Virus record (IMG/VR): IMGVR_UViG_3300047510_002124
Location: 1 to 34,989 of that record
Strand: one strand, 5' to 3'
DNA length: 34,989 nt
DNA from: a virus
Shown here: piece by piece, positions 8,432-34,989 of the stretch
How positions within the stretch are numbered: the first letter of the stretch is position 1
Layout of the letters: each line of letters begins with the position of its first letter
Position numbers and translations under genes: made by a program
Notes under the pieces: generated by a model
What the model was told of the DNA's origin: nothing
The model's input: the letters and a program-made list of their open reading frames with translations, nothing else
The model's database searches: none

Positions 8432-8442
8432 AGTTCCCTCCA

Positions 8443-8986: not shown

Positions 8987-8987
8987 A

Positions 8988-9604: not shown

Positions 9605-9609
9605 AAATT

Positions 9610-14125: not shown

Positions 14126-14628
14126 ACTACACCATGAAGAAAAATTTGATGGACACACTCAACAATTCCATAATCTCTACTATCTATATGGTAATCCCAT
14201 AATGCATTATGGGCAATACTTCTTGCCATATTACCTGGATTAAATCCAGTAAGTATGCCATAAGGAATAGAATTGCCCTCACAGTACTTAATACAATTAA
14301 TAATATTCTTAGATTCTCCCCCAGAACTAATTAAAATACAAAGTGTATCGACTTTGGCATAATACTGAAGAAAACGACAATAAGCATTTTCCATTCCAAA
14401 GTCATTAATAAAGCAAGTCAACATAGATGGGTCAGAAAAAACCATAGAGTTCTTATTATGAAACTTCACATAATCTTGGGAGATATGTGAAGCGACAGCA
14501 TTACTACCACCATTGCCCAAGATAATAATATTATTATATTTTTCAAAAGCAGATTTAAACTTTTGGAACTGTTCCTCAATATGAGCACCCTGTAGTGCTT
14601 CAATATAACTTATAAAAGGATTACTCAT
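14122..14628 (-). CDS. SIS-domain sugar isomerase, GmhA-like (168 aa)
   Basis: Phosphosugar isomerase fold. The phosphate-binding loops are ILGNGGSNAVASHISQDY near 35-53 and LISSGGESKNI near 97-107, and the C-terminal VECVHQIFLHGV fits the GmhA helix with the conserved His. GmhA converts sedoheptulose 7-phosphate to D-glycero-D-manno-heptose 7-phosphate. At 168 residues it is slightly shorter than bacterial GmhA (about 190). It follows the GHMP kinase with a four-base overlap and precedes the HAD/nucleotidyltransferase, the order expected for nucleotide-heptose synthesis. Confidence 0.85.
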   Translation of the reverse strand: MSNPFISYIEALQGAHIEEQFQKFKSAFEKYNNIIILGNGGSNAVASHISQDYVKFHNKNSMVFSDPSMLTCFINDFGMENAYCRFLQYYAKVDTLCILISSGGESKNIINCIKYCEGNSIPYGILTGFNPGNMARSIAHNALWDYHIDSRDYGIVECVHQIFLHGVV

Positions 14629-16389: not shown

Positions 16390-17147
16390 TTTTTAATAAA
16401 CTGCGAGTCGTGATATTGTTGATCAAAATTTTTGGGTTGTGGGATAATAACCTTCGATTTACAACCACTAAACCACCAAGCAACTTCATCAAAGGTACTA
16501 TCATAAGTTCCAACAATTGTACTACATCTTGACAAAATTAATAGTTCAATAAAAGCATCCGTAGTTAATTGGATATTATCATGGTGTCCAGATTCTGCTA
16601 AATGGGGTTGATTGAAAACTTGCCGATCATAAGTTATAACTTTATCTCCATATTTTTCAATAAAGTAGTCCTGAACATCAGAATTATCAGAACAAAAGAA
16701 AAACTTTTCTGGATTTAATTTATCAATTTGTTCCTCAAAGATATCATTACTATGAAATCTTCTTTTTTGACAATACCAAGAACGAATATGAACTCCTACC
16801 ATATTATTCCAATCTTTAGTAAAGTCATTCACATACTCAATAATATCTGGATTAATTTTAAGTTTATCAAGTATATTCAAATATTTTTCAACAAAGTAAC
16901 TCGGAGTCTTTTCGTATAAAAGATCTATAGTTTTATAATCATTAATATATTTCTGTTCATCTGCAGTTACATATAATCGCCAATCTTCTTCATAAGAATT
17001 AATCATTTCCTCAACTTTAGTGAGAGATGGAAAAATATAATGCATAGTATCGTATAAAGTTCCCACTTCATAATTCTGAGATAAGGCACTCATTGTATTT
17101 TTAATTCTATTCGCAATTCCAGCGTGACTTGTTACTGTTACTAGCAT
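16386..17147 (-). CDS. Fucosyltransferase-like GT-B glycosyltransferase (253 aa)
   Basis: The N-terminal VTVTSHAGIANRIKNTMSAL and central VGVHIRSWYCQKRRFHSND (near 118-136) recall the O-fucosyltransferase/NodZ group, where an H.R motif binds GDP-fucose. A late SRCSTIVGTYDSTFDEVAWW motif occupies the place of the S-FS-A motif of that group. The protein is short for the family. It lies between a GT11 gene and a GT-A gene, overlapping both. GDP-L-fucose or GDP-L-galactose as donor is an inference. Confidence 0.7.
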   Translation of the reverse strand: MLVTVTSHAGIANRIKNTMSALSQNYEVGTLYDTMHYIFPSLTKVEEMINSYEEDWRLYVTADEQKYINDYKTIDLLYEKTPSYFVEKYLNILDKLKINPDIIEYVNDFTKDWNNMVGVHIRSWYCQKRRFHSNDIFEEQIDKLNPEKFFFCSDNSDVQDYFIEKYGDKVITYDRQVFNQPHLAESGHHDNIQLTTDAFIELLILSRCSTIVGTYDSTFDEVAWWFSGCKSKVIIPQPKNFDQQYHDSQFIKK

Positions 17148-17935
17148 TTAATTTTCCTCCAATGTTCTGGATATAAATCAATAGTGTTAATATGAGAAAG
17201 TCCCGGACCATACCAAGGACTTGGAGCGATAACTGTTCCACGATTTGCTAACCAAGCACCCCACCAACTAAAAGTGCTATTGCAAATAATAAAATCTTGG
17301 CATTTAGATATTAAACAAAGATCCAAAAATTGCTTTTCTACTCTAGACTCTACAGCACTAAAGATAAAATTATCACCTTTAAAATAATCCCTATAAATGT
17401 CAATATTATTAGAACAGACAATATAAATTCTGTCTTTACCCATCTTTTCTATTGCCTCATTAAAATAAGAGATTGGAAGATTTCTATGGTTATTTTCACA
17501 TCCAGGATAATCAAATGTCTTATTATAATCTCTTAGGCAAATCGATACTGGATTTTCTTTTAAGACATCACCATAATATTTTTCAACTTCCTCTATTATT
17601 TCTTTCTTAAATTTAAAGTCCAAACGAATTAATTTTTCAGCATTTTTAAAATATTTTTCAGTTTGAAAATATCCATTGAGTGTTATATGATTAGGACACT
17701 CATTAAATAAATCTTCACAGAACTCGTGAGAATCATGAAGTTCAACTTCATCACCATCAACCAAACCGTAACGATCTCCACAATGAAGCATTTCAAATCC
17801 ACGAGTTAAATCGCAATCATTTGGAATTCTAAAATCATAACCTTTATTTTTAGCAATACCAACAAGAGCAGCATATTGGAACATTTGATTTCCAATCCTA
17901 CCATTCTTACCAAGATTATTCATCCCAATAGTCAT
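17141..17935 (-). CDS. GT11-like glycosyltransferase with altered HxRRGD motif (264 aa)
   Basis: Homologous to the GT11 protein at 10795 over its whole length: NGRIGNQMFQYAAL (11-24), LFNECPNHITLNGYFQTEKYF near 77-96, and ICNSTFSWWGAWLANRGTVI near the C-terminus. The donor-binding motif, normally H.RRGD.Y, reads ICLRDYNKTFDYPG at 132-145, so the His and one Arg are replaced. This suggests another donor or weaker activity. The gene sits between a GT92-like and a GT-B gene and overlaps both by a few bases. Confidence 0.85.
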   Translation of the reverse strand: MTIGMNNLGKNGRIGNQMFQYAALVGIAKNKGYDFRIPNDCDLTRGFEMLHCGDRYGLVDGDEVELHDSHEFCEDLFNECPNHITLNGYFQTEKYFKNAEKLIRLDFKFKKEIIEEVEKYYGDVLKENPVSICLRDYNKTFDYPGCENNHRNLPISYFNEAIEKMGKDRIYIVCSNNIDIYRDYFKGDNFIFSAVESRVEKQFLDLCLISKCQDFIICNSTFSWWGAWLANRGTVIAPSPWYGPGLSHINTIDLYPEHWRKIKC

Positions 17936-18765
17936 AGTTCAATTCCCATATTTTGTTCTTTCAATCTATTATCTATTATATCACCAATATCTAAAGAATA
18001 AAAGGCATGCCATCCCCTAGTATTCCCAGTATACCAATGATTGCAATCACCTCGATGCATTTTTACAGTCTCCCAATATTCTCTAGATTGTAATTGATAA
18101 TGATTTAATAGTAATTCAGGATCATCCGAATTTGTTTTATAAGACAAATTTATACTTGGACCATCGTTAATTACATCATGAACGGTAAAAGCTTTGATAC
18201 CAAAATCCGTATTCACAATACACTTTGGTGCATCTAAAATTTGCCATTCTGGTTCATTTTGTCCATTTGGAGCAGCATGACTATACAAAGTACATAATAC
18301 TTTTGCATTATATTCTGCTCGTTTATTAAAGTTTTTAACTATACCACCTTTAGGGTGTTTAATAAAATCATTCGAATTAAACCATACCCAATTTGTTATT
18401 ACTTTTCCATAATTTTCATATTTAACGAAAATATCTTTTAAATCAATTGCCTTAGGACTGTAGAGAAATTCATCTAAATCAACTTGAGCAATCCACTTTG
18501 ATTCATTTGCAATTGGAAGAAGATACTTATTTGTTATATCAAGTTGCCTACCAATATATCTTTTAGATATATCACTTTTGAAAAGTGTTACATATTCGGC
18601 ATCAATATATGGTTGAAGAATTGGAAGATAATCATCATCACTAAAATCATCAACTAAGTAAATGTGATCTACTCCATGTAATTTATAGTGCTCTATCCAT
18701 TCTTTTAGGCTCCAACTTTCATTTTTAAACATTGAAGCTACTGAAAAATAATACTTATGATTCAT
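17932..18765 (-). CDS. GT92-like (DUF23) glycosyltransferase (277 aa)
   Basis: KNESWSLKEWIEHYKLHGVD at 14-33 followed by HIYLVDDFSDDD is the classic opening of the GT92/GT2-related family. WIAQVDLDEFLYSP carries the DxD-type motif near 92-98. LLLNHYQLQSREYWETVKMHRGD near the C-terminus is the HY.. RS...K segment of the same family. GT92 enzymes add beta-galactose in eukaryotes; bacterial and phage members are mostly untested. It is soluble and lies within the coupled glycan operon. Confidence 0.85.
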   Translation of the reverse strand: MNHKYYFSVASMFKNESWSLKEWIEHYKLHGVDHIYLVDDFSDDDYLPILQPYIDAEYVTLFKSDISKRYIGRQLDITNKYLLPIANESKWIAQVDLDEFLYSPKAIDLKDIFVKYENYGKVITNWVWFNSNDFIKHPKGGIVKNFNKRAEYNAKVLCTLYSHAAPNGQNEPEWQILDAPKCIVNTDFGIKAFTVHDVINDGPSINLSYKTNSDDPELLLNHYQLQSREYWETVKMHRGDCNHWYTGNTRGWHAFYSLDIGDIIDNRLKEQNMGIEL

Positions 18766-19469
18766 AATTTTATTTGGTACTTCTCATAAACATATTTAAA
18801 TTCATTGTCAATTTCTTCATCACTAATTCTTTCTTTCCAAGTTTGCGTATCTCTAACACGATTTCCTATTAAAATATCATCCATGTAAATTGGATGATCG
18901 TATTTAAGTTTCATATTATAGTAAAAATCTACATCCATAAGCATTGCAGTTTTTGAATCAAACCTAATATCAACTTCCTTTTTAAATGATAGAACTGATG
19001 GAGATCCAATAAAATTGTTTCCGTTATGGAGTATCATATTGTCGGACCATCTTGGATACATTGAATTAAAAAATGTATGTCCATCATCCCGAGTATGAAT
19101 ACATCCACACACCAACCAGTTTAATGTTGAATTTTTTAATTCATAATAAATTTTTTCAAGTGCTTCAGTATCATACAAAAAATCATCTTGTAATAAAACT
19201 TTTACTACCTCACCAGAAGAATTATCGATTGCAACATTTGTATTGCTACAAGGATTTCCTCTATCCAAATCATTTCGAATATACTTTATTGTTAAGTCAT
19301 ATTCATTCAATTTACAATAATCTTCTATGATACTATCGATACTATGATCAGAAACAACAACTTCAACATCCTTTAAGGTTTGGTGTGAAATTGTTCTGAA
19401 CATATCATCTAAAAATTCAACACCCCTACCATAATATTCATAAACTGGAACTGTAACAGATACCTTCAT
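18762..19469 (-). CDS. GT2-family glycosyltransferase (235 aa)
   Basis: A short GT-A enzyme. It opens KVSVTVPVYEYYGRGVEFLD, followed by ISHQTLKDVEVVVSDHSIDS, and uses KVLLQDDFLY as the metal motif (QDD near 93-95). An NNFIGSPSVLSFKKE strand and an AMLMDVDFYYNMKLKY segment stand in place of the usual catalytic ED. Such enzymes transfer sugars from UDP- or GDP-sugar donors to growing glycans. No membrane helix. It overlaps both neighbours by four bases. Confidence 0.85.
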   Translation of the reverse strand: MKVSVTVPVYEYYGRGVEFLDDMFRTISHQTLKDVEVVVSDHSIDSIIEDYCKLNEYDLTIKYIRNDLDRGNPCSNTNVAIDNSSGEVVKVLLQDDFLYDTEALEKIYYELKNSTLNWLVCGCIHTRDDGHTFFNSMYPRWSDNMILHNGNNFIGSPSVLSFKKEVDIRFDSKTAMLMDVDFYYNMKLKYDHPIYMDDILIGNRVRDTQTWKERISDEEIDNEFKYVYEKYQIKL

Positions 19470-20155
19470 TTTTTCCAGACTTTAGCTCCAGCAGTCAGAC
19501 CATCCTCATAAATTTCGTATCTGTACTTATGATTTTCTAACCATTCTCTAAATGCCTTCCTTTCGTGAAAGTCATAGTCTGGTTCATAACCATGCCAATC
19601 ATCAAAGCGAAAATAAAGTTCATCCCACTCACACTTATCAATGAACTTAAAAGCAGATACGGTTGGTTCATAGATATCTAAATCAATATGAACTGCACCA
19701 ATTTTACTAATACCATAATCACTTGGATCTTTCATTTCATGTACGTCTTCCACAAATATTTTGATATTAGGAGACTCAGAACACCTATTAATTACATCCT
19801 GCACAGTGCTAGGAATCCATGCATTATTTGGATCACCGACTCTAAATGCACCCTCAGACCATCCAGCATAATCTGGAGTTGGTTGTGAAGATTTTTCTAG
19901 TCCTTTAAAATGATCGAATCCAAATACTTTTCTTTCTGGATTTGCTTTCCCAATAGGAACAATAGTTCCCCCAGAACAGACACCAAACTCAATAATGTCT
20001 CCATCACCAGCAAGATCTTTAATTTTTTCAGCAAATTCTAAATGTGTCAAGGCATACTTAGAAGTATCACTATTAGTTTTCCTAGGTAGTTCTGGAAAAA
20101 TATTATCTACTTCTGAGAATGATTTTGGACTGTATACAAAGTCTAGGTAGGGCAT
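19466..20155 (-). CDS. TylF-like SAM-dependent O-methyltransferase (229 aa)
   Basis: Methylates a sugar hydroxyl. The SAM-binding motif is DIIEFGVCSGGTIVPIG near 53-69. VFGFDHFKGLEK, the GAVHIDLDIYEPTVSAFKFI stretch (metal-binding Asp near 158-160) and the FRFDDWHGY motif match the macrocin O-methyltransferase (TylF/MycF) family, which is Mg-dependent. The gene begins 20 bases after the stop of the DUF5672 gene, one of the few real gaps in this cluster. One of three methyltransferases here. Confidence 0.85.
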   Translation of the reverse strand: MPYLDFVYSPKSFSEVDNIFPELPRKTNSDTSKYALTHLEFAEKIKDLAGDGDIIEFGVCSGGTIVPIGKANPERKVFGFDHFKGLEKSSQPTPDYAGWSEGAFRVGDPNNAWIPSTVQDVINRCSESPNIKIFVEDVHEMKDPSDYGISKIGAVHIDLDIYEPTVSAFKFIDKCEWDELYFRFDDWHGYEPDYDFHERKAFREWLENHKYRYEIYEDGLTAGAKVWKK

Positions 20156-20175
20156 AATTAAATCTTCCTATAATA

Positions 20176-20904
20176 CTAAATTAATTCTATATTTGGAGGT
20201 AAATTTCCATGAAATCCAAATGGAACAATACCTTTGTTTATATCTAGGGGACTTTCATGGGAGAAGTATTTTGCAACTTCAACTGGTGCAAATTTACATC
20301 CTTGTTCCTCAAAAATATGGCGATTATGAACGCAAATATTTCCATCCTCATTCCAATTAATTGCACCAAACATTTTGTAAAAATCATTCATTGCAACTAC
20401 ATCAAAAGGGACTTCAACTTTTGACGGAACCTCTAGAAGTTTTTTGCTACGGAGAGAAAAACCGCCATTCCCCACAGAAATATGTTCTTCAAAGGGGGTC
20501 ACAAATCCATCAGTTTTCCATGGCCAAGGAGCACCAATATAATCATAGTCTAAAAATTCATCTCTCCAAGCATCTGGGTTAATAATAAATCCATCATATT
20601 GAATAGTTAAAACATAATCCGTATCAATATAATCATTCAAATGGTAGATCATAAATTGGGAATAATCTTTCATATTCTCAATGGGAATACTTGGTTCTTC
20701 ACAAATAATTCCATCGGAAAAAAGTTCTTTACCATAATTATCAATTACTTCCTTTGAAGTTATAAATTTAACTTCAGAAAATTTGACAGACTCTATACAA
20801 GTGTAAAGAGCCTTTATAGTATCTTTTACTCCACTACAATCGCTATTATCTTGTCCCCAAGGAACAAACAAAGTAAATAAAGTAATATTCTTCAAATCCA
20901 ACAT
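20176..20904 (-). CDS. DUF5672-type putative glycosyltransferase (242 aa)
   Basis: It matches the pattern I know from DUF5672 proteins found in glycan loci: VLTIQYDGFIINPDAW near 97-112, DYDYIGAPWPW, the SVGNGGFSLRSKKLL segment, the EDGNICVHNRHIFEEQGCKFAP region, and the final PFGFHGN. The GNGGFSLR and FGFHG motifs are shared with several GT-A transferases, so a sugar transferase role is likely, though members are largely uncharacterised. Five bases separate it from the upstream GT11-like gene. Confidence 0.8.
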   Translation of the reverse strand: MLDLKNITLFTLFVPWGQDNSDCSGVKDTIKALYTCIESVKFSEVKFITSKEVIDNYGKELFSDGIICEEPSIPIENMKDYSQFMIYHLNDYIDTDYVLTIQYDGFIINPDAWRDEFLDYDYIGAPWPWKTDGFVTPFEEHISVGNGGFSLRSKKLLEVPSKVEVPFDVVAMNDFYKMFGAINWNEDGNICVHNRHIFEEQGCKFAPVEVAKYFSHESPLDINKGIVPFGFHGNLPPNIELI

Positions 20905-20908
20905 TTTA

Positions 20909-21952
20909 TCAAATTACATCAGGTTTATCATCATAAAAGGAATGTTTCTTACGATACTCCTTGTATTCTTCCTTACAATCAACTCCATTCATTATTTTAC
21001 CATCCTTATCAATATAAGTCCAATCATCGACAATATTATCATCACCCCTCCAATATCCAGTAGAACGTTTATAATCATTCCAATATTTTGGAGCAATAAT
21101 CATCTTGGATTTTGTATTCGTCCAAGCGGGCCAAAAAGCAAAGGTAGATGAAGTAATAATAGAATAAACAGCGTTATTTAATATTGAATAATCAATGCCA
21201 ATCGGTCCTCCTTTATATTCATAAAATCCAGTTCCTTGTAGATGTGCTAAAGGGTCTTTATCATCAGAAACAGACGATCCAATAATAGGAGCCCAAGGAA
21301 TAAACTTCCTAGCATTTTCTGGATCATCAGTAACAACACCAAACTTCATATTGGGATTTATTTCAAGCATCCTATCTGCTGCCATTCTGTAATATTCTGG
21401 AGGACACCAAGCAGAAGTAATTAGATACTCACCACCCCTAAACTGAATTACACAAAAATTATCTCTCGAATATTCGGTGACAGTAATACTGGGTTTTAAC
21501 CACTCTATAATATCATTACGTCGGTCATTAATATATCTCAGCCTCTGAAAAGTTCCATCAACTTTTGTATTATCTGGAATTGTATTATACAGTAAATCAT
21601 CGTAAATTATAGCATCCTCATTCGGCAAAGGATGCATAGAAGATGGGTATGGATCCCATCGTTCTCTAGCATAATATTTAATACCATCAGGAAGTTCTAC
21701 AGGTTCTTGCCCTTCATTATGAGTAATTCCCCCAGTAACTTCATCACCAAAATCAATATTAAGTAAAAATTGACATCCTTTAAATGTCTTCAATCCAAAA
21801 GATGGAGAATTTGCACTACCCTGAGCACTATTTGTAATATCTCTTCTTACACCCCAACGAAATCCTCTATGTTCAGCGATACATCTTGGGGCAACAATAT
21901 TCCAAAGTTGATTACCTAATCCAGATCCATTATAAATTTCTGATACGATCAT
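20909..21952 (-). CDS. Remote GT11/fucosyltransferase-like protein (347 aa)
   Basis: SGLGNQLWNIVAPRCIAEHRGF at 10-31 is the GT11-type opening (G.GNQ). NFCVIQFRGGEYL near 165-177 sits at the H.RRGD position but reads QFRGGEY, and SSTFAFWPAWTN.. with MIIAPKYW replaces SSTFSWWGAWL..VIAP. It is longer than the other two GT11 genes, with a charged tail (CKEEYKEYRKKH). It is probably a GDP-sugar-dependent transferase with altered specificity. It overlaps the GT17 gene by four bases. Confidence 0.75.
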   Translation of the reverse strand: MIVSEIYNGSGLGNQLWNIVAPRCIAEHRGFRWGVRRDITNSAQGSANSPSFGLKTFKGCQFLLNIDFGDEVTGGITHNEGQEPVELPDGIKYYARERWDPYPSSMHPLPNEDAIIYDDLLYNTIPDNTKVDGTFQRLRYINDRRNDIIEWLKPSITVTEYSRDNFCVIQFRGGEYLITSAWCPPEYYRMAADRMLEINPNMKFGVVTDDPENARKFIPWAPIIGSSVSDDKDPLAHLQGTGFYEYKGGPIGIDYSILNNAVYSIITSSTFAFWPAWTNTKSKMIIAPKYWNDYKRSTGYWRGDDNIVDDWTYIDKDGKIMNGVDCKEEYKEYRKKHSFYDDKPDVI

Positions 21953-22725
21953 CTTATTAAGTGAGAATACTTTTCTTGATTATCAATTATATACTGAGGG
22001 AAAGAGTCATCGATATCAACTCTATGATAATTAATTTGATTTCTGTTTAAAACGTCTCTCCCATTTTTTAAATTATCCTCAACACTTTCTACTACTTCTG
22101 GAACATCAAAATGCGTATCACAGAAGGAGTATATTTTTTGTTTAATATGGTTTGCATCACCACAATAAGTAAAATGCCAACCAGCATTTGTTATAATAGA
22201 TCCAGTAATTTTGTTCTCATCCTCAGTGCTCTCACGAATATCATCAACCGTCGTATTTTTCATATACTTATAAGTTGCAGCTCGAGTTCCAAACCAAGAC
22301 TCACTATACAAGTTATTAATGTATCCATGATACGCTTTTTGTTGAAATGTAAAATGAGTCTCAGAATTAATCCATTCATTACTATATTCCAAGACTTCTG
22401 GATTTGGGATTTCATCCCCATCACTAGTTAAGATTAAATCATTATCTTCAAAGATATCCAAATTCATTATCGAATTTCTTGAGTAAATTTCCCTATCCCA
22501 GGGACTGTTAAATTCTGGTATTGTAATTTGATTAAGAATAATCTTATCTTCCCATTTGGAAAATTTTTTCCTATTATTTAAAAAATGACTTTCTTTTGAT
22601 TTTCCAGAAAAAGTAATATCACCTTCAGTAATAATAAACTTATCTACATAATCATTTAAAATATTCAATCGAATATCTAATAATTCAATTTCATGGTTAA
22701 AGATAAAACAATCAAAAATCTTCAT
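21949..22725 (-). CDS. GT17-like glycosyltransferase (258 aa)
   Basis: Resembles the beta-1,4-mannosyl-glycoprotein N-acetylglucosaminyltransferase family (GT17). KIFDCFIFNHEIELLDIRLN at 2-21, FIITEGDITFSGKSKES near 30-46, RNSIM followed by LILTSDGDEIPNPEVL near 96-111 (metal-binding DGDE), and NAGWHFTYCGD near 181 are the recognised family signature. It presumably adds a GlcNAc-like sugar to a phage-directed glycan. Soluble, and coupled on both sides. Confidence 0.88.
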   Translation of the reverse strand: MKIFDCFIFNHEIELLDIRLNILNDYVDKFIITEGDITFSGKSKESHFLNNRKKFSKWEDKIILNQITIPEFNSPWDREIYSRNSIMNLDIFEDNDLILTSDGDEIPNPEVLEYSNEWINSETHFTFQQKAYHGYINNLYSESWFGTRAATYKYMKNTTVDDIRESTEDENKITGSIITNAGWHFTYCGDANHIKQKIYSFCDTHFDVPEVVESVEDNLKNGRDVLNRNQINYHRVDIDDSFPQYIIDNQEKYSHLIR

Positions 22726-23543
22726 AGAATTTCTCTTTTGATAAAAACAACCATATTATCCATATCTTGTTCTATGATTTCACTATCATCAACTAAAAAG
22801 TTATCTCCCAAAAGAGCAACACATTCTTTATGAGTTTTAATTTTAAAAGTTGTTGCTATAGATCTGACAATATACGAATACTTTGATTTAGAAATTACAT
22901 TCTTATAATAATCTTGCTGAACACTAACTTTGTCTTCAGTAAATGAATTGACTCCAATAAAAAGATCTATATCATCAAAATTTTCATCTTGATAATTATC
23001 CGAATCTAAGAAAGAACATTTTTGTGCAAAATCAGAAAATTCCTTTACATATCTTTGATTAAAAAGATTTGCTTCTTCAAGATCTATAAAGGTAATTTTT
23101 TTGAAGTTAATAAGTTTATCTAAAACAATACTTAATCCACCATATCCAGGTCCAACTTCAACTACATTATTAATTTTATCGTCTCCAATCAATTGAAGTA
23201 TATTTAAAATATTATAAGCATACTTTAGTGAAGTTATTGATCCAATAATTTTGTTGCCAAAATCATGAATATCTGGATTTCCTACTTTATCGTTAATGAA
23301 GAATAAATCTAGATTGGATATAAAAGTTTCATATAATTCGTGTTCTTTAATCAATCCCAAAAAATAGTCCCCAGTTAATCTTGGACCTCCTTCCAACATT
23401 ATCCTATAATCTGGATTTTGTTTGAAATTATAAAACTCATCCGTTTTAGACATTTCTAAACAGACTCTTTTATAATTTTTTATGGACTCTTGATGCTCGG
23501 ATGGAAAATCCCATTCACGATCATAATCAATATCTAAAATCAT
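22722..23543 (-). CDS. Putative sugar O-methyltransferase (273 aa)
   Basis: The SAM-binding motif is NNVVEVGPGYGGLSIVLDKL near 125-144, after an N-terminal helical region with the conserved MLEGGPRLTGDYFLGLI segment near 49-65. This pairing is typical of the uncharacterised sugar O-methyltransferase family found in surface polysaccharide loci. ITFIDLEEANL carries the acidic residue that holds the ribose of SAM. It lies between a GT17 gene and another methyltransferase. The substrate is unknown. Confidence 0.82.
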   Translation of the reverse strand: MILDIDYDREWDFPSEHQESIKNYKRVCLEMSKTDEFYNFKQNPDYRIMLEGGPRLTGDYFLGLIKEHELYETFISNLDLFFINDKVGNPDIHDFGNKIIGSITSLKYAYNILNILQLIGDDKINNVVEVGPGYGGLSIVLDKLINFKKITFIDLEEANLFNQRYVKEFSDFAQKCSFLDSDNYQDENFDDIDLFIGVNSFTEDKVSVQQDYYKNVISKSKYSYIVRSIATTFKIKTHKECVALLGDNFLVDDSEIIEQDMDNMVVFIKREIL

Positions 23544-23554
23544 TTTGTTTCCTA

Positions 23555-24166
23555 CTAAACAACTTTTAAATCAAAGTATCTATTAAAATTTAATAACCCT
23601 GTTCCAGAAGGGAAATGTCCTATATCCGTTAAATCAAATTTTCCGTGCTTAGATTCATCAATCTCACCCCAAAATCTTTCCATATCCTGATTTTTGTGGA
23701 TATCATCTAACATTAAAAGTCCGCCTTTCCAATGTTCTTCTAAAAATGCAATCATAACTCTTTCTTGAGATCCATTATGAGGATCAACATCAATAGTAAT
23801 TAAATCAATATTATCATAATCAATCTTATCATTCATAAAATTTCCAATTCTAAATTCTACGTTTTCTCTTGTATTTTGTTTTATATGACTATCTAAAATA
23901 TCGATAATGTCGTAGCTAATAACTTTATTAGTAGTATTGTGAGAAAGCATACAAGCAGATCCTCCCATATGAGTACCCACTTCCAAAATTGTGGTATTAT
24001 TAACTAAAGTAGATAGATATCCATAAAGAGGATAATCACTTCCCTGTTGAGGTCCGTAATAATGAACTGCAGTGCTTCCCATATACTCTAGAAGATATTT
24101 ACATTCATCATGAGAAGATGACAAGACATAAGACTTATCAATTTTAATTTTTTTACTCTTTTTCAT
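23555..24166 (-). CDS. Class I SAM-dependent methyltransferase (203 aa)
   Basis: ILEVGTHMGGSACML near 82-96 (present numbering) is the SAM glycine loop. ISYDIIDI and LITIDVDPHNGSQE supply the acidic strand residues, with LLMLDDIHKNQ later, as in the Methyltransferase_24 and cephalosporin-hydroxylase-like group. The start at ATG 24166 is favoured because GGAG lies eight bases upstream and two bases before the ATG is the end of the previous gene; the longer frame would need TTG at 24211. It has a basic N-terminus (MKKSKKIKIDKSY). Likely modifies a sugar in this pathway. Confidence 0.8.
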   Translation of the reverse strand: MKKSKKIKIDKSYVLSSSHDECKYLLEYMGSTAVHYYGPQQGSDYPLYGYLSTLVNNTTILEVGTHMGGSACMLSHNTTNKVISYDIIDILDSHIKQNTRENVEFRIGNFMNDKIDYDNIDLITIDVDPHNGSQERVMIAFLEEHWKGGLLMLDDIHKNQDMERFWGEIDESKHGKFDLTDIGHFPSGTGLLNFNRYFDLKVV

Positions 24167-24167
24167 T

Positions 24168-25214
24168 TTATTCTCCAATTTGTTCCTTAATCCAATTATA
24201 AGTCTTGGCAATTCCCTTTTCTAAACTTTGCGAATAATCCCATCCTAGTTTTTCGCGGATAAGATCATTGTTGGAGTTACGACCACGAACTCCAAGAGGA
24301 GCATCAAGTCTATGAAGTTTCTCTACTTTTTTATTAGCAACTTTAGCAGCAGTATCAACAAGTTGATTGATTGTAACCATTTCTTCGGAACCAATATTAA
24401 CTGGTCCAATGAAATCAGATTCCATCATACGACGAGTTGCCTCAATACATTCATCAATATAGAGGAACGACCGAGTTTGTTTTCCATCACCCCAGACTTC
24501 AATTGCACCACCTTCTTCAGGAAGGTATGCTACTTTACGACAGATTGCTGCAGGTGCCTTTTCTCTTCCACCTTCCCAAGTTCCTTCGGGTCCAAAGATA
24601 TTATGATAGCGAGCAACCCGAACAGGGATCCCATAATTACGATGATATGCGAAAAATAGTCGTTCAGAGAAGAGTTTTTCCCACCCATACTCTGAGTCTG
24701 GTGCTGCTGGGTATGCGGATTCTTCACGACAATCTGGGTTCTCAGGATCTAATTGATTATGCTCTGGATACATACATGCCGATCCAGAGTAGAAAATTTT
24801 GGTTTTATTCGTATCTTTTAATTGATTAAACTGTCGAACTGCTTCTAGAACATTCAAGTTAATAGTAGCAGAATTATGCATAATATCAGCATCATTCTCA
24901 CCAGTAAAAACAAATCCTGCGCCACCCATATCAGCAGCAAACTGGTAGATTTCATCGAATGGTTCAGCAAACTTATCAACAATTTGATGATAAAAATTGC
25001 CAAGATATCCAGTAAAGCGAATACATCTTTCAACGAACTTTACATCACGAAGATCACCACGAATGAACTCGTTTGCTTCTGAGATTGAATATTCAGGATA
25101 CTTAAGATCTACACCACGAACCCAGTATCCTTCAGAGAGAAGTCTTTTAACCATGTGACTTCCAATAAATCCACCAGCACCAAGGACAAGTGCTGTCTTC
25201 CTATATTCACTCAT
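24168..25214 (-). CDS. GDP-mannose 3,5-epimerase-like SDR (348 aa)
   Basis: Converts GDP-D-mannose to GDP-L-galactose, or to GDP-L-gulose as a by-product. The NAD motif is GAGGFIGSH at 12-20. QFAADMGGAGFVF near 91-103 and SGSACMYPEHNQ near 143-154, with the catalytic Cys at about 147, plus EYGWEK with Tyr 176 and Lys 180, match plant and bacterial GDP-mannose 3,5-epimerase closely. GPEGTWEGGREKAPAAICRK is also family-typical. The length (348) is a little below the plant enzyme. GDP-L-galactose could serve the GT11-type transferases downstream. Confidence 0.88.
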   Translation of the reverse strand: MSEYRKTALVLGAGGFIGSHMVKRLLSEGYWVRGVDLKYPEYSISEANEFIRGDLRDVKFVERCIRFTGYLGNFYHQIVDKFAEPFDEIYQFAADMGGAGFVFTGENDADIMHNSATINLNVLEAVRQFNQLKDTNKTKIFYSGSACMYPEHNQLDPENPDCREESAYPAAPDSEYGWEKLFSERLFFAYHRNYGIPVRVARYHNIFGPEGTWEGGREKAPAAICRKVAYLPEEGGAIEVWGDGKQTRSFLYIDECIEATRRMMESDFIGPVNIGSEEMVTINQLVDTAAKVANKKVEKLHRLDAPLGVRGRNSNNDLIREKLGWDYSQSLEKGIAKTYNWIKEQIGE

Positions 25215-26508
25215 TGTTTTTTAATATGTAAGAGTTAATAACTTCTTCTATATATTCTACCATAGAATCAGTAATTGTGGGAGAACATCCTACAAAAAAT
25301 ACATTATCCAGAACCTTCATCGCATTTGGGTAATTGAATGCGGATTCTAGATGTCTATAAGCGGGGTGAATCAAAAGATTTCCGGCAAAATAATTTCGGG
25401 TTTGAATTTTATTGTCTTCTAAGAATTTTACAAGTTTAGTTTTATCTTGACTGCAGACGATAGGAACACCGAACCAACTGGTTTCAGCATTTTCTTTTTC
25501 ATCAACTACCCTAACTCCAGGAATTTTATTAAAAATTTCTTGAAGTCTCATTTTATTAGATCTACGAAGAGAATGTATTTCCTCAAACTTTTCTAGTTGA
25601 ACTGAACCAATCGCACCAAGCATATCAATCGGTTTGAGATTATATCCAATATTACCAAACACATACTTGTGATCCACAACTTTGTCGTATCCAAGCAACC
25701 AATTATCAAATCTCTTTCCGCAGGTTCCACAAGAAAGAAGATTTTGAGACCCTACACAATAACAATCACGACCCCACCAGGCAAAACTTCTTGCCAAATC
25801 TACAACTTCTTTAATGTTGGAGGAGACCATACCACCTTCAATCGTAGTGATATGATGAGCAGGATAGAAAGAGCAAGACGCTGCCACGGCAAAATCGGTT
25901 AGATAATTACCATTCCACTTGCTTCCAAGACTGTCACAATTGTCAGCAATAATAGCAATATTATTTCTCCTACAGAGGTCAGCAAACTTACTCATATCAT
26001 AAGGATTTCCCAGAACTGGAGATGAAATTGCTGCCACAGTTCTTGGAGTAATCTTTTGTCTGATTTGTTCTAAGTCCCAATTCAAATCAGAGTAATCAAT
26101 ATCAACAAATACTGGTTTTAGATTATTCTGAATAATGGGATTTAAGGTAGTCGGAAATCCACAGACAGAAACAATGATTTCGTCACCGTCTTTCCACCCA
26201 AAGTGTTTCTTGAGTGCCGCAATCATTACAAGATTTGCAGAACTACCAGAATTTACCATTAGAGAATATCCAAAATTAAACTTTTTGGAAAACTCCCGCT
26301 CAAACTTATTGACACTTTCTCCAGAAGAAAGCCACTTACCAGTTAGAAAACATTTGAGTGCTGCTTCAATTTCCCGATTGTCCCAATAAGGTCCAGAATA
26401 AAAGATATTACTTTCACCCTTCACATAATCATTGTTATAGAGATAGGGAAAGAAATTATCTTCAGTATTAAATAGATTCTCAATAAACTGTTGTACTTGT
26501 TCTTTCAT
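25207..26508 (-). CDS. RfbH-like PLP/iron-sulphur sugar 3-dehydrase (433 aa)
   Basis: A DegT/DnrJ/EryC1-fold enzyme. Instead of the PLP-lysine it has His in SFYPAHHITTIEGG (His 218 at the Lys position), the mark of the 3-dehydrase group (RfbH/E1, ColD). A Cys-rich stretch DCYCVGSQNLLSCGTCGKRF (Cys 249, 251, 260, 263) resembles the [2Fe-2S] region of E1. E1 removes the C3 hydroxyl of a 4-keto-6-deoxyhexose nucleotide on the way to 3,6-dideoxyhexoses. It needs an electron-donating reductase, which I do not see nearby. An RmlB-like 4,6-dehydratase lies two genes upstream of the 275-aa epimerase. Length is family-normal. Confidence 0.88.
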   Translation of the reverse strand: MKEQVQQFIENLFNTEDNFFPYLYNNDYVKGESNIFYSGPYWDNREIEAALKCFLTGKWLSSGESVNKFEREFSKKFNFGYSLMVNSGSSANLVMIAALKKHFGWKDGDEIIVSVCGFPTTLNPIIQNNLKPVFVDIDYSDLNWDLEQIRQKITPRTVAAISSPVLGNPYDMSKFADLCRRNNIAIIADNCDSLGSKWNGNYLTDFAVAASCSFYPAHHITTIEGGMVSSNIKEVVDLARSFAWWGRDCYCVGSQNLLSCGTCGKRFDNWLLGYDKVVDHKYVFGNIGYNLKPIDMLGAIGSVQLEKFEEIHSLRRSNKMRLQEIFNKIPGVRVVDEKENAETSWFGVPIVCSQDKTKLVKFLEDNKIQTRNYFAGNLLIHPAYRHLESAFNYPNAMKVLDNVFFVGCSPTITDSMVEYIEEVINSYILKNNE

Positions 26509-26512
26509 TTTA

Positions 26513-27340
26513 CTAATTAATAATTTTACAAAGATTTTCTAATCCCCTATTCAAATTCATAGAACAAGAGAATTCAAAAGAATTTAATTTATGAGTATTT
26601 AATGTCATATTCTTGACTTGAATAAACTTTTGATTGTTTGGAAATGGGACATCAATAATTTTACTTTGACTTCTGGTTAGGTCTTTTGCTACTTCTATAA
26701 TACCACGAAAAGTGAAAGAAGTGCCAGAGGCAATATTGTAAATCTCATTTACATTACCTTTATCCAAAACTACCTTAATTGCCCCACAAATATCCTCAAC
26801 ATACATATAATCTTTTAAGAAGTTTCCGCCATCATAAAGTTTAATGTCTTGGTTTTGCTTGAGAAGACTAATCATATATCCAAGAACATTCTTACCAAGA
26901 GAGACTGTCTTATCTAATCCATATACATTCCCAATTCTCAAAATTCTATACTTAACTCCAAAAGTTTCACAAAAAGATATAAGTAGTTGTTCAGCACATC
27001 GTTTGGTAATGGAGTAAAACCCAGTAGGATTACAACAGTCTGTTTCTTTGGCGTCTATGACATCACTACCATAAACAAATCCAGAACTGATAAAATTGAA
27101 AACTATATCTCTGTCCTTACAATTCTTAAGCACATCAACAAATAAACTCAAGTTTGTGTCAATATCAATATGTAAGTCTTTAAAAACACTTTGATTTGTT
27201 GTTGTACTGATGAAATAAAGAACTTGTTGAGTTTCAAAGTTTCTACTTTCTTTTGGAACTAACACCACATCTTCTGGATAAAGATTACAGAAAGTTCCAC
27301 CAATAAATCCTGTTCCACCAAAGACTGATATATTAGTCAT
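26513..27340 (-). CDS. NAD-dependent sugar epimerase/reductase, SDR (275 aa)
   Basis: The N-terminal NISVFGGTGFIGGTF gives the dinucleotide-binding loop. SSGFVYGSDVI and FYSITKRCAEQLL (Tyr and Lys of YSITK near 136-140) form the catalytic pair, with RIGNVYGL after them. DFLKDYMYVEDICGA is the late SDR strand. A reductase or epimerase acting on the RmlB/RmlC/RfbH product is likely. I start at ATG 27340 (MTNISVFGG), which overlaps the previous stop; the longer frame would use GTG 27349. Substrate uncertain. Confidence 0.82.
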   Translation of the reverse strand: MTNISVFGGTGFIGGTFCNLYPEDVVLVPKESRNFETQQVLYFISTTTNQSVFKDLHIDIDTNLSLFVDVLKNCKDRDIVFNFISSGFVYGSDVIDAKETDCCNPTGFYSITKRCAEQLLISFCETFGVKYRILRIGNVYGLDKTVSLGKNVLGYMISLLKQNQDIKLYDGGNFLKDYMYVEDICGAIKVVLDKGNVNEIYNIASGTSFTFRGIIEVAKDLTRSQSKIIDVPFPNNQKFIQVKNMTLNTHKLNSFEFSCSMNLNRGLENLCKIIN

Positions 27341-27863
27341 ACTTATCACACTCAGAAAAAAGAGTTCCTTTCAAATCTTTTTCGGACATAATTGGATTAT
27401 CGGTGCCCCAATCAATATCCAGATCGCTCCACAATAGACTTCTTTCGTGTTCCGTGTATTGATAGTCTGTGACCTTATAAAGCACTTCTGCCCGCTCTGA
27501 GAGGACCCTGAACCCGTGAGCGAATCCTGGAGGAACCCACAATTGAAGTTCTCCTGGAGAAAGTTTATAAGCAGTCCATTGACCGAATGTAGGAGAACTT
27601 TTACGGAGATCAACAATCACATCATAAATTTCTCCAACCAAGCAACGAACAAGTTTTCCTTGTGGGTGTTGAATTTGATAATGAAGACCTCTCACTACAT
27701 TCTTTACAGATACTGAATGACAATCCTGAACGAACTTATACGTTCCAATGATTTTTTCAATCTCACGAAGATTGAAAGACTCTGTAAAAGAACCTCTGTT
27801 GTCGCAAAAAATATCTGTAGTGATTAAATATGCGTCCTTTAATTTAGTTCCTATCGCGTTCAT
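27333..27863 (-). CDS. rfbC: dTDP-4-dehydrorhamnose 3,5-epimerase-like (176 aa)
   Basis: A cupin-fold epimerase of the rhamnose pathway. Family motifs present are DNRGSFTESFN near 21-31, RGLHYQIQHPQGKLVRC near 58-74 (catalytic His 61), WVPPGFAHGFRVLSERAEVLYKVTDYQY near 109-136 (Tyr 134 as the acid/base candidate), and GTDNPIMSEKD near the end. The length fits RmlC (about 180). Only the RmlB and RmlC steps are seen here; no RmlA- or RmlD-like gene is clear, so host dTDP-glucose or another NDP-sugar would be used. Confidence 0.92.
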   Translation of the reverse strand: MNAIGTKLKDAYLITTDIFCDNRGSFTESFNLREIEKIIGTYKFVQDCHSVSVKNVVRGLHYQIQHPQGKLVRCLVGEIYDVIVDLRKSSPTFGQWTAYKLSPGELQLWVPPGFAHGFRVLSERAEVLYKVTDYQYTEHERSLLWSDLDIDWGTDNPIMSEKDLKGTLFSECDKYD

Positions 27864-28770
27864 ACCAGTTAATCGTGTGTTCTAATCCTTGTTCTATAGT
27901 AAATCGTGGAGACCATCCCAATTCTTGACGAATCTTAGTAATATCTGTAGAGTACCTACGGTCGTGCCCTGGTCTATCCTTTACATATTCTATCATACTT
28001 TCATCCATATTCATATGACCCAAAATCATATGGACTAGGTTAATATTCTCAATTTCACACTCTCCACCAATATTATACTTCTCCCCCACTCTACCGTTCA
28101 TCCAGACCTGATACAATGCCTCACAGTGGTCTTGAACGTATAACCAATCACGAACTTGTTTTCCATCACCATAAACAGGAACTTTCTTACCTTGCTTGAG
28201 ATTTGTGATTGCTTTAGGAATCATCTTCTCCACAAACTGCCTAGGTCCGTAGTTGTTAGAGCAGTTTGTAATGATTGCTGGAAATCCATACGTGTTGTGA
28301 TATGCCATTACAAAGTGGTCTGATGCTGCTTTAGAAGCGGAGTATGGATTACGTGGAGCATAGTTAGAGTTCTCTGTAAATTGTCCCTCTTCTATGGAAC
28401 CATAGATTTCATCAGTAGAGATATGAATAAACTTTTCTACTGCATACTTCAAAGATAGATTTAATAGATTAACAGTTCCCGAAATATTTGTATGAATAAA
28501 AGGTGTACAATCTTTAATCGAATTATCTACGTGACTTTCTGCAGCTAGGTGGAAGATTGTGCTTGGTCTGTGTTTCTTAAAAACAAAATCACAATTATTC
28601 TTATCGGCAATATCAGTTGTATAAAACTTTACATCGTCAGGAATATTATGCCAGTCTGCGGCATATGTTAATTTATCGATACAAATAACTTCTTCATCTA
28701 CAGTTTTAACTAAATGATGAAGCAAATTACTTCCTATAAATCCTGCACCACCTGTTACTAAAATAGTCAT
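27844..28770 (-). CDS. rfbB: dTDP-glucose 4,6-dehydratase-like (308 aa)
   Basis: Makes NDP-4-keto-6-deoxyglucose, the shared intermediate for 6-deoxy sugars. GGAGFIGSNLLHHL opens the NAD-binding fold (7-20); the active site is STDEIYGS (118-125, Asp and Glu as catalytic acid/base) with YSASK at 143-147. NNYGPRQFVEKMIPKAITN and VPVYGDGKQVRDWLYVQDHC are strong RmlB signatures. Somewhat shorter than typical RmlB (about 340-360). It heads a block with RmlC, an SDR and the RfbH-like 3-dehydrase. dTDP is assumed; CDP is equally possible given the RfbH-like partner. Confidence 0.93.
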   Translation of the reverse strand: MTILVTGGAGFIGSNLLHHLVKTVDEEVICIDKLTYAADWHNIPDDVKFYTTDIADKNNCDFVFKKHRPSTIFHLAAESHVDNSIKDCTPFIHTNISGTVNLLNLSLKYAVEKFIHISTDEIYGSIEEGQFTENSNYAPRNPYSASKAASDHFVMAYHNTYGFPAIITNCSNNYGPRQFVEKMIPKAITNLKQGKKVPVYGDGKQVRDWLYVQDHCEALYQVWMNGRVGEKYNIGGECEIENINLVHMILGHMNMDESMIEYVKDRPGHDRRYSTDITKIRQELGWSPRFTIEQGLEHTINWYERDRN

Positions 28771-31696: not shown

Positions 31697-32143
31697 TTAT
31701 TTTTCAGTAAAGGAACGCAGCATCCAAACAAACTTACCGTGAGATTCCATCAGGTCTTGCACTAGACTAGCAGTGGCATATGACTTTTGTTGCTCCGCTT
31801 CCTCGGAAACTTCTACCAAAAGTTCAATCAAACTTCGGTTGTCATCGTGAAGTTGTTTTACCATACCATCAGCATCAATATCTTGAGCACTATTTGATGC
31901 TTGTTCAACTCTCGAAACTTCTGTGGTCCTGGAGAGGGTGCTGATTGGTTTGATATTCAAGTATCTCATATGCTCTGAGACACGATCAACCTCTTCAAAC
32001 ATCGCTTCATACTGATCCCCAAAGAGAGTATGGAGTTGTTGAAAATCGGGACCTACAACGTGCCAGTGATAGACCCAAGTTTTGTGAAATAAGACGAACA
32101 GAGATGCCTGAGCGTCACTAATAAGTTTGTATAACTTTTCCAT
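31697..32143 (-). CDS. dps: Dps-like ferritin (DNA protection during starvation, 148 aa)
   Basis: Ferritin-fold protein that oxidises Fe(II) with peroxide and stores iron, so limiting hydroxyl radicals. The ferroxidase residues are all present with Dps spacing: His 26 (VYHWHVVGP), His 38 (LHTLF), Asp 53 and Glu 57 (FEEVDRVSEHMR). The start at 32143 (MEKLYKLISD) is preferred because the upstream part of the longer frame runs through the tRNA-Val gene, and because a late promoter (TATAAATA) is placed 20 nt ahead. The basic N-terminal tail of DNA-binding Dps types is missing, so iron handling is favoured over DNA binding. Confidence 0.9.
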   Translation of the reverse strand: MEKLYKLISDAQASLFVLFHKTWVYHWHVVGPDFQQLHTLFGDQYEAMFEEVDRVSEHMRYLNIKPISTLSRTTEVSRVEQASNSAQDIDADGMVKQLHDDNRSLIELLVEVSEEAEQQKSYATASLVQDLMESHGKFVWMLRSFTEK

Positions 32144-32162
32144 TATACCACAGATTTTTAGG

Positions 32163-32627: not shown

Positions 32628-33590
32628 TCAGTTTCCGATACGCTTTACAGCGATTCGTGATTTGTTGAGAATACTACCTGCAAGAGGAACATATCCCAGA
32701 TCATCCGCAATCATTTGTGCCTTAGAACTCAGAGCATAGTTCAGAGCAGCACGAATATCATTTGCCTTTGCACCATTACCAGTCTTATAAGCAAGAACCC
32801 AAGTCAAAGTAGAGATAGGGTAGGCAGCGGCACCAGAAGGATTGGGATTTTCTCCAGCAAGGTTAGAATCAAGTTTGATGCCATTCAGAGCAGCGGCACC
32901 AGAAGCAGCAGTAGGAAGAACGAACTTACCTGCTTTGTTTTGGAGAGCAGCAACTTGGAGTTTGTTTGATTTCACAAATCCAGTATTCACATAACCAATT
33001 GAACCAGAGGTTTGGCGAATTGTTCCAGAGACACCCTCGTTTCCTTTGCCACCAAGACCAACGGGCCAATTGACGGACTTACCTACACCAGGTTTCCATC
33101 CACCAAAGGCATCCAGAGAGTTGGTGAAAGCATAAGTGGTTCCAGAACCATCAGAACGATGAACAACAGTCATAGGACCTGCAGCACATCCAACTGCCTT
33201 CCAGTCCTTAATACGTCCAGAGAAAATATTCACAGTCTGCTTCTGAGTGAGTTTCAGAGAGCATCCTGGTTTGTTATAGGCAATCGCAATCGTTCCTCCC
33301 ACCATAGGAATTTGAACGACACCACGCTTTACTTTACTCGCATCTTTTGACGAGATAGACTCATCAGAAGCACCGAAATCGACAGTTCCTGCGATAAATT
33401 GACGGACACCAGCACCAGAACCAACGGACTGATAATTCACACGATTACCTGTAGATGAAGCATAATCTGCAAACCAACGTTGGTAAATGGGGGCGGGGAA
33501 GGTAGCACCAGCACCATTCAAAGGAGATCCAGCAAGTGCCGCAACAGGCGCAGCGACCAGACCCATAGCAATAAGATTTTTAAGTTTCAT
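32628..33590 (-). CDS. pstS: Phosphate-binding protein of the ABC phosphate transporter (320 aa)
   Basis: Periplasmic receptor that delivers phosphate to the host PstCAB importer. A signal peptide (MKLKNLIAMGLVAAPVAALA) precedes SPLNGAGATFPAPIYQRWF, the usual mature PstS start. Phosphate-contact motifs are SVGSGAGVRQFIAGTVDFGASDES (near 50-73) and HRSDGSGTTYAFTNSL (near 141-156). The start at 33590 is set by the signal peptide; the longer frame would add 36 residues reaching into the promoter. A Pho-box-like array lies upstream and a terminator downstream. Phage pstS is known in marine cyanophages. No transporter subunits are encoded here. Confidence 0.96.
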   Translation of the reverse strand: MKLKNLIAMGLVAAPVAALAGSPLNGAGATFPAPIYQRWFADYASSTGNRVNYQSVGSGAGVRQFIAGTVDFGASDESISSKDASKVKRGVVQIPMVGGTIAIAYNKPGCSLKLTQKQTVNIFSGRIKDWKAVGCAAGPMTVVHRSDGSGTTYAFTNSLDAFGGWKPGVGKSVNWPVGLGGKGNEGVSGTIRQTSGSIGYVNTGFVKSNKLQVAALQNKAGKFVLPTAASGAAALNGIKLDSNLAGENPNPSGAAAYPISTLTWVLAYKTGNGAKANDIRAALNYALSSKAQMIADDLGYVPLAGSILNKSRIAVKRIGN

Positions 33591-33626
33591 AAAAATTTGT
33601 TTAGAAGTAAAATAGACTTCTCCGAA

Positions 33627-33682
33627 ATCATAAGAGAAAATAAAGAAAAAGTCCACTAAGATTTGGTTAAGAGGTTCATAAC
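33627..33682 (-). promoter_or_regulatory. Pho-box-like repeat array and -10 of pstS
   Basis: Upstream of pstS the minus strand carries GTTATGA (33682-33676), CTTAACC (33671-33665) and CTTAGTG (33660-33654), each starting 11 nt after the previous one, the period of PhoB sites. CTTAACC matches the core of the cyanobacterial Pho box. A -10-like TATGAT follows at 33632-33627, about 37 nt before the ATG, and no good -35 is present, as in PhoB-activated promoters. The host PhoBR system under phosphate stress is the likely regulator. Confidence 0.7.
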
Positions 33683-33684
33683 AT

Positions 33685-33711
33685 AAAAAAGCACCCAAAA
33701 AATGGGTGCTT
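33685..33711 (-). terminator. Rho-independent terminator of the porin gene
   Basis: In the transcript AAGCACCC (33711-33704) pairs perfectly with GGGTGCTT (33696-33689) around a 7-nt loop and is followed by a T-run to 33685. It is placed 23 nt after the porin stop and directly ahead of the Pho-box array, so pstS is transcribed separately. Confidence 0.9.
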
Positions 33712-33734
33712 CCACTCAGATTATGAGTGATTTA

Positions 33735-34989
33735 TCAGAACTTGAAGGTAGTTTGAATAACTCCACCCCAAGCAGACTCGCCATCATAACGTGCGTTATT
33801 GGTAACGTAGAAGATAGCAGGAGTAACAGTGATGTTATCGGACACACGATACTTGTAGAAGATTTCAAGCATCGAGGCATCACTACTGATGTTCTCGGAG
33901 TTTCCAGGTTGCCCATAAGCAATTCCAGCAGAATTACCTTTAGCAAACACATCGCTCCACTGGAGACCAACCATCCAAGAATCGGAATCGGTAGCACCAG
34001 ATGTCTTACCTTTACCATCCACATCATTGTATCCATATCCAACAGAAACTGAAGGAATGTATCCAGATTCGGCAGGTTGCCAGTAAGCATTCAGAGCGAC
34101 GCTATTAGAGGTTTGACCTGCTACAAGCGCAGCAGAACCGCCTCCAAGGGCGTTGAAGGTACGAACGCGACTACCTTCAGTACCATAGCGGTAAGCAACA
34201 GCAGCGCCCCACTGAGGAGCACGATATCCAACCTGAGCAAGGAAATTGACTCCAGAATCAGAGTTGAATACACCAGTTTCGGTGTTATCGCCATCTTGAG
34301 AGACGTAGTTCAGACCAGCAACAAATCCACCCTGTCCTTTTTTGGTGGGCTGTTTCCACTGGGCACCAACACCAGCACCTGTTGCTTTGTTATAAACACC
34401 AGAAGCACCACCAAGTTGGAAGAAGTCCAGAATATCTGACTTGTAAGCAGAAGGAATCCAAACCATCTCGGTATTACGAACCAGAGGTCCAGCAGTCAGA
34501 GTTACACTCTTACCAACAGGGAACTGGTAGTAAAGGCGATCAATGGTTGCCTGTTCAGCAAGAGTTTCTGCTTTGTCCAGTTTGAACAGAGAAGAACTAG
34601 AACCGAAAGGATCAGAACTAAAGTTACCAGAACGAATACGAGTGCGAAGCAAATCCTTACCCGTGAATGAAGTATCAAAATTCAGACGGAGATCATAGTT
34701 GAATGCGGTGTTGCCAACGTTTCCACCAGCATTCGTTTCTAGACCAGGAACTCCACCAAGAATAAAGGATGCTTCACCCTTGAGTTTGGTAGTGGTAGAG
34801 AATTGAGTTGCCTCAAGTTTGCCTACCTTTGCCTCAAGACCATCTACACGACCTTTGAGAATACCAAGTTCAGTTTTGAATTCAGCGATCAGACGCTCAA
34901 GTTCATCAGTAACTTCGGTTACACGATCCAGACAAGCATTGAGAAGAGCAGCAGCTTCGTAACGAGTCATTGCCTGACCGCCACCATAA
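33735..34989 (-). CDS. Cyanobacterial-type outer-membrane porin, partial (at least 417 aa)
   Basis: Beta-barrel porin of the cyanobacterial Som/OprB class. The visible N-terminal part is the end of an SLH domain (YGGGQAMTRYEAAALLNACL) leading into a coiled coil (ERLIAEFKTELGILKGRVDG and a following heptad stretch to about ATQFSTTTKL). The rest is a barrel with alternating polar/hydrophobic strands ending in Phe (IQTTFKF), the standard outer-membrane signature. In the same frame the sequence continues past ATG 34970 to the window edge, so that ATG is internal and the signal peptide and most of the SLH domain are missing. It presumably inserts in the host outer membrane. Pairing with pstS mirrors host phosphate-acquisition loci. 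Confidence 0.9.
   Translation of the reverse strand, partial: YGGGQAMTRYEAAALLNACLDRVTEVTDELERLIAEFKTELGILKGRVDGLEAKVGKLEATQFSTTTKLKGEASFILGGVPGLETNAGGNVGNTAFNYDLRLNFDTSFTGKDLLRTRIRSGNFSSDPFGSSSSLFKLDKAETLAEQATIDRLYYQFPVGKSVTLTAGPLVRNTEMVWIPSAYKSDILDFFQLGGASGVYNKATGAGVGAQWKQPTKKGQGGFVAGLNYVSQDGDNTETGVFNSDSGVNFLAQVGYRAPQWGAAVAYRYGTEGSRVRTFNALGGGSAALVAGQTSNSVALNAYWQPAESGYIPSVSVGYGYNDVDGKGKTSGATDSDSWMVGLQWSDVFAKGNSAGIAYGQPGNSENISSDASMLEIFYKYRVSDNITVTPAIFYVTNNARYDGESAWGGVIQTTFKF

Follow-up and report, generated by a model that had tools for sequence, protein, structure and literature searches.

A porin–pstS gene pair in freshwater T4-like cyanophages and its possible role in phosphate uptake

An outer-membrane porin gene followed by pstS is a real, conserved module of cyanophage genomes, and this pair extends the known set of phosphate-acquisition genes carried by phages. 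The pair is interpreted here as a module of two genes with which freshwater T4-like cyanophages would promote phosphate uptake, a reading to which a probability a little better than even (about 0.55) is assigned, and within which the porin would conduct phosphate (Pi), host PhoB would bind to a box ahead of pstS, and the two products would act jointly. The locus was found in the window, that is, the whole stretch of DNA analysed here (34,989 nucleotides, IMG/VR record IMGVR_UViG_3300047510_002124), which is matched with the highest coverage by Synechococcus phage S-SRM01, a freshwater isolate of the Kyanoviridae. Synteny and similarity with S-SRM01, together with the presence of the T4-type capsid protein Gp23 in nine porin-bearing relatives, suggest that the window phage is itself a T4-like cyanophage (Kyanoviridae). 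The label “freshwater” is taken from S-SRM01 and the host relatives, rather than from sample metadata, and the IMG/VR sample comprises the best 80 matches per query, which makes the lineage counts lower bounds.

The two genes and their pairing

The porin gene occupies the right end of the window (33735–34989, minus strand), and the identification of a Som-type porin in a preliminary description of this DNA is upheld by the OprB barrel domain (PF04966, 9e-19) found in the 417 visible amino acids. The 5' end of the gene is missing because the IMG/VR record stops inside it at the window edge, beyond which the signal peptide and the greater part of the SLH domain would lie; the full-length phage relatives possess a signal peptide and both SLH and OprB domains (SLH 5e-9 in relative L016). 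The porin of S-SRM01 is 69% identical to that of the window, and S-SRM01 (two accessions) is the only one of 50,697 phage records in which the porin was found, while 395 stretches matching it were recovered from IMG/VR. In the structure model of L016, a 16-stranded barrel is predicted with a pLDDT near 90, and a Foldseek search with this model returned OprB as the top match, with OprO, OprP, and general porins (OmpF, OmpM) matched too. OprO and OprP are matched, but so is OmpF, and the fold therefore gives no substrate identity; the computed net charge of the barrel is likewise uninformative on anion selectivity, and a PDB sequence search with the porin recovered no relatives, only weak coiled-coil matches.

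The pstS gene (32628–33590, minus strand), placed downstream of the porin and the repeat array by the preliminary description, is intact and encodes a periplasmic phosphate-binding protein of 320 amino acids (phrog_5385, 2e-126; PBP_like_2, 8.7e-40), whose closest solved structures, 7xg8 (1.6e-109) and 7xg7, are annotated as phosphate transporter substrate-binding proteins. The residues T30, F31, S58, D76, R145, S149, G150, and T151 are invariant across nine phage PstS proteins, and presumably correspond to the phosphate ligands of the Escherichia coli protein; the window protein thus combines the sequence family and the phosphate-binding residues expected of a cyanophage PstS. Both genes are under purifying selection, with a median dN/dS of 0.14 for pstS and 0.22 for the porin.

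That the two genes form a pair is confirmed by the viral relatives: 72 of the 74 testable window-type viral pstS genes of IMG/VR, and 44 of the 46 non-redundant ones, are immediately preceded by a porin gene of the same strand, both counts being made among the matches listed, with a distance between the genes of mostly 120–170 bp. Among the matches listed for the porin, pstS adjoins the gene in 18 of 42 non-redundant loci and is lacking in the other 24, and the complete genome of S-SRM01 carries the porin and no pstS. The pairing is near-obligate from the pstS side, then, and looser from the porin side, which indicates that the porin is the more widespread gene and pstS the addition. A Dps-like ferritin gene (31697–32152, minus strand; PF00210, 8.6e-22) is, by synteny, a frequent next neighbour of the locus among the relatives, and the porin, hairpin, box, pstS, and Dps-like gene all lie on the minus strand of the window.

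Terminator, Pho-type box, and promoters

The spacer between the porin and pstS contains an intrinsic-terminator-like hairpin, AAGCACCC-loop-GGGTGCTT, followed by a run of T (33690–33711, minus strand), as previously proposed, and the folding of this segment, which was repeated on relatives, gives −23.4 kcal/mol. Downstream of the hairpin is a Pho-type box of 8-mers placed every 11 bp, GTTATGAA-cct-CTTAACCA-aat-CTTAGTGG (33653–33682, minus strand), with a −10-like TATGAT 20 bp from it (33627–33632, minus strand). The box was identified with a matrix derived from 75 host pstS promoters only (consensus CTTGAcCcgctCTTAACCaanCCATAACGA, median position −82), and outscores every other site upstream of pstS (p = 0.005, the lowest value that 200 shuffles allow), ranking second among approximately 70,000 window positions on both strands, where the sole higher-scoring site is intragenic. 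A scan for the textbook YTTAAYYW repeat gave no significance to the three window repeats (p = 0.19), and the host-derived matrix was used instead. The array with an 11-bp period and CTTAACC-type units that had been described is therefore real when judged against the host matrix, although it is not long, and consists of two clear repeats and one weak repeat.

In a comparison of 18 non-redundant upstream regions of phage pstS, the TTAAC core of the box stands out as the longest stretch of the spacer in which no column varies; in the phages, the box takes the form CTTAACC(A/T)-NNN-CTTAGTKG. Some of the matrix matches found approximately 135 to 160 bp upstream of pstS in the relatives fall within the region of the porin stop codon, and these were discounted. 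In the marine phage P-SSM2, CTTAACCTTCTCTTAGTTTACA precedes the opening gene of the pstS cluster, and a −10 element follows 19 bp further on, so that both the box and its spacing are nearly those of the window. The pstS of P-SSM2 is reported to be under host PhoBR control (PMC10976474). The tandem 8-bp repeats with an 11-bp period, resembling the host Pho boxes, are those expected of a PhoB/SphR promoter, and phage promoters of the sigma70-like and late-like types are each found in only one of 17 pstS upstream regions. The box probably serves pstS only, as a putative PhoB site, since the porin lies upstream of it and behind the terminator. The proposal that the pair as a whole is placed under host PhoB can thus be retained for pstS, whose box resembles those of the hosts and of P-SSM2, but not for the porin, which lies upstream of the box.

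The porin promoter lies beyond the window, and the search for further Pho boxes that had been recommended was made on the relatives. A Pho-like box overlapping the −35 element was found in 10 of 101 porin upstream regions (0.03 expected), but most regions have none, and a sigma70-like promoter is present in 77 (2.6 expected) and a late-like TAAATA motif in 80 (7.9 expected). These two motif types suggest that porin expression is independent of phosphate in most of the phages, and the promoter sequences point to a likely design in which the porin is produced whatever the phosphate level, and PstS on demand. No convincing Pho box was found in a search of the host porins linked to pstS. In two relatives (L371 and L374), the porin promoter includes a Pho-like box, and in four others (L003, L018, L026, and L053), a tRNA-like sequence lies directly upstream of the porin, with the late-type motif right after it.

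Origin of the two genes

The best host matches of the phage porin (58–66% identity) belong to a single porin family, and in freshwater Cyanobium and Synechococcus, many members of this family immediately precede a pstS gene of the same strand; identity to the other host porin clades does not exceed 57%. The main phage porin clade falls inside the clade in which most of the host porins linked to pstS are found, alongside some copies without this link, with an SH-aLRT of 99 in quick searches and 100/100 in a careful tree. The porin is accordingly placed among the pstS-linked Pi-stress porins of the picocyanobacteria, within a clade that also holds some unlinked host copies. A search of the viral contigs with one host pstS-linked porin as the query returned no match.

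The preliminary description had named Prochlorococcus as the matching neighbourhood, which was not supported: in the Prochlorococcus loci fetched, the porin, where present, lies approximately 2.8 kb from pstS, on the other strand, and the match is with freshwater or brackish Cyanobium and Synechococcus. With these hosts, the idea of a host neighbourhood is largely right. The host loci (L097, L106, L109, and L116) share the gene order, the orientation, and the porin clade with the phage locus, and have a Pho box between the porin and pstS at approximately −82, as in the phage, differing in the third repeat, which is CTTAGTGG in the phage and CATAACGA in the host, and in the position of the window-type phage pstS, which falls outside the host pstS of these freshwater loci. 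In a careful tree of pstS, the window-type gene forms a deep, separate clade with no resolved donor, so that the comparison of both genes with the hosts by phylogeny ties the porin to its source, but not this pstS.

The viral porins were captured from the hosts at least twice. A second viral lineage (L368–L375), found in T4-like cyanophage contigs, is approximately 49% identical to the window porin and nests with host porins that are not linked to pstS, and the AU test rejects a common origin of all the viral porins (p = 5.7e-4). A single origin for the freshwater-phage pstS is also rejected (AU, p = 1.2e-5), and this gene has at least two origins, given that a different type (L007, L019, and L056) nests among host pstS that come after a porin. 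In one contig of the second lineage (L370), the porin is combined with a small, secreted-looking protein and precedes a pstS of the window type, which has a similar box. The claim that the phage carries a copy of a host neighbourhood therefore agrees with the porin clade and the gene order, but acquisition as a single block is unsupported, as each gene was acquired more than once. In the loci L007, L018, L019, and L056, when compared with the other phage loci, two pstS lineages stand behind near-identical porins, as if pstS had been exchanged there. In some hosts (L097, L251–L253, and L258), the porin is followed by two pstS-like genes in tandem, of which the second copies form a separate, fast-evolving clade, and a picocyanobacterial pstS also occurs in a contig titled Bifidobacterium breve (L129, CALPNT020000009.1), a record that looks mislabelled or contaminated.

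Proposed function and alternative explanations

In the marine phosphate cluster DUF680/Phage_OMP-pstS(-phoA) of phages such as P-SSM2, S-SM1, and Syn19, a barrel gene also precedes pstS in a T4-like cyanophage, and the Pho-type box of P-SSM2 shares its core and its −10 spacing with the window. That barrel is small, outer-membrane-like, and specific to phages (approximately 120 amino acids, PF24653), and its gene lies between the box and pstS, 3–40 bp from the latter, whereas the window has a full-size, host-type porin upstream of the terminator and the box. Phage_OMP lies immediately upstream of pstS in 13 of the 15 marine cyanophage isolates inspected (L445–L454 and L460–L462), the exceptions being P-SSM4 and P-RSM4, which lack it at that position, and a Pho-like box precedes it in P-SSM2, P-SSM7, and S-SM2. 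Earlier papers have already suggested that DUF680 is preceded by Pho boxes and has a role related to phosphate (PMC9146016, PMC6224464); DUF680/Phage_OMP is common in the cyanomyoviruses, in one of which it mutates during adaptation to a Synechococcus host (PMC6224464). Phage_OMP is present in 166 phage records and pstS in 100, so that this barrel also occurs without pstS. A search for PF24653 in 25 freshwater-type records (24 from IMG/VR, including the window and several fragments, plus S-SRM01) found none above the cut-off, and the Som porin therefore takes the position of the marine barrel. An outer-membrane barrel combined with PstS is thus a recurrent design, and the presence of two unrelated barrels next to pstS argues for a functional link.

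Phosphate uptake in marine bacteria is thought to be constrained by porin-limited diffusion, and Pi-stress porins are upregulated under Pi limitation (PMC7250820, PMC3349580), while cyanophages without pstS lyse their hosts late at low phosphate (PMC10976474). In the proposed mechanism, the phage would use early and late promoters of its own to add a Som-type pore to the outer membrane of the host, and host PhoB would turn on the periplasmic, Pi-binding PstS of the phage in a phosphate-starved cell. As the host transcripts vanish during infection, the porin would maintain or increase the permeability of the outer membrane to Pi, and PstS would catch the incoming Pi and hand it to the PstCAB pump of the host, so that a phage with both products would address both barriers of the envelope. 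This phosphate-uptake reading is supported by the pairing, the pstS-linked host porin clade, the box, the dN/dS values, and the marine barrel before pstS, and is weakened by the frequency with which the porin occurs on its own, by porin promoters that mostly have no Pho-like box, by host pstS-linked porins that show no convincing box either, and by the uninformative charge of the barrel.

Two alternatives stay alive because of the porins without pstS and the lack of Pho boxes at most phage porins, or convincingly at the pstS-linked porins of the hosts. The porin may serve the general maintenance of the outer membrane, replacing host porins whose mRNA has been lost and passing all small solutes, in which case its link to pstS would be inherited from the host locus and without special meaning. 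Promoters of the early and late motif types, and a fold that matches OprB, OmpF, and OmpM as much as OprO and OprP, would be expected from such a role, but the window-type pstS and the porin are no simple inherited block, yet are still paired, and an unrelated barrel takes the same position in the marine phages, which leaves this explanation rather improbable. The porin may otherwise remodel the cell surface and exclude superinfection, by changing or hiding receptors, with pstS as a frequent but separate neighbour. The model here is the Lc porin of the lambdoid phage PA-2, which replaces the outer-membrane proteins of the host and is, like the cyanophage protein, a complete porin encoded by a phage; PA-2 differs in being a temperate enterobacterial phage, whose porin is linked to receptor replacement and has no nutrient gene beside it. 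The many phages with a porin and no pstS, the sigma70-like promoters, which suggest expression independent of phosphate, and the two or more captures, one of them from a clade that lacks the pstS link, are consistent with exclusion, while the main capture from the pstS-linked clade, the near-obligate pairing on the pstS side, and the Pho-like boxes gained by some porin promoters make it unlikely. The insertion of a host porin–pstS locus into a phage contig through contamination or misassembly, suggested by the same gene order in host genomes, is scarcely credible, and is excluded by the recurrence of the arrangement across many independent IMG/VR records, the presence of Gp23 in nine of the 20 records with a porin that were tested (and in every one of the eight above 115 kb), the porin of the isolate S-SRM01, and the grouping of the phage genes in clades of their own.

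The searches of the literature, made mostly among openly available papers, found no paper linking a cyanophage porin with pstS, and the porin is unmentioned in the S-SRM01 paper. The one precedent found for a viral porin beside a nutrient-uptake gene is OmpL, which adjoins amtB/glnK in a virus of the Bacteroidetes (PMC8115048), and which differs in the nutrient (ammonium), the host phylum, and the porin family. The pstS gene of phages is a standard example of an auxiliary metabolic gene, and the supply of an outer-membrane pore by a phage is not described in the literature searched. With the pore and PstS encoded side by side, freshwater cyanophages may rebuild the whole path of phosphate into the infected cell. 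More tentatively, at somewhat less than even odds, cyanophages may have repeatedly built a two-barrier phosphate import from a barrel and PstS, using Phage_OMP in the marine lineages and captured host Som porins in the freshwater ones; diffusion across the outer membrane, beyond the supply of PstS, would in that case be a limiting step relieved by phages during infection. This pattern points to a role for DUF680/Phage_OMP in the marine phages, and the freshwater pair and the unrelated marine barrel together make a permeability limit on phage production at low phosphate testable.

The other genes of the window include psbA, plastocyanin, ferredoxin, peroxiredoxin, and a weak hli-like match. A redox and photosynthesis cluster (7904–9905) encodes the peroxiredoxin, which is unusual for a phage, a 91-aa protein, plastocyanin, ferredoxin, and the hli-like protein, and in L370, the peroxiredoxin, 91-aa, and hli-like genes lie directly behind pstS. 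Approximately 19 kb of the minus strand (10004–28770) is occupied by sugar-nucleotide, glycosyltransferase, and methyltransferase-like open reading frames, which form a large glycan-synthesis block.
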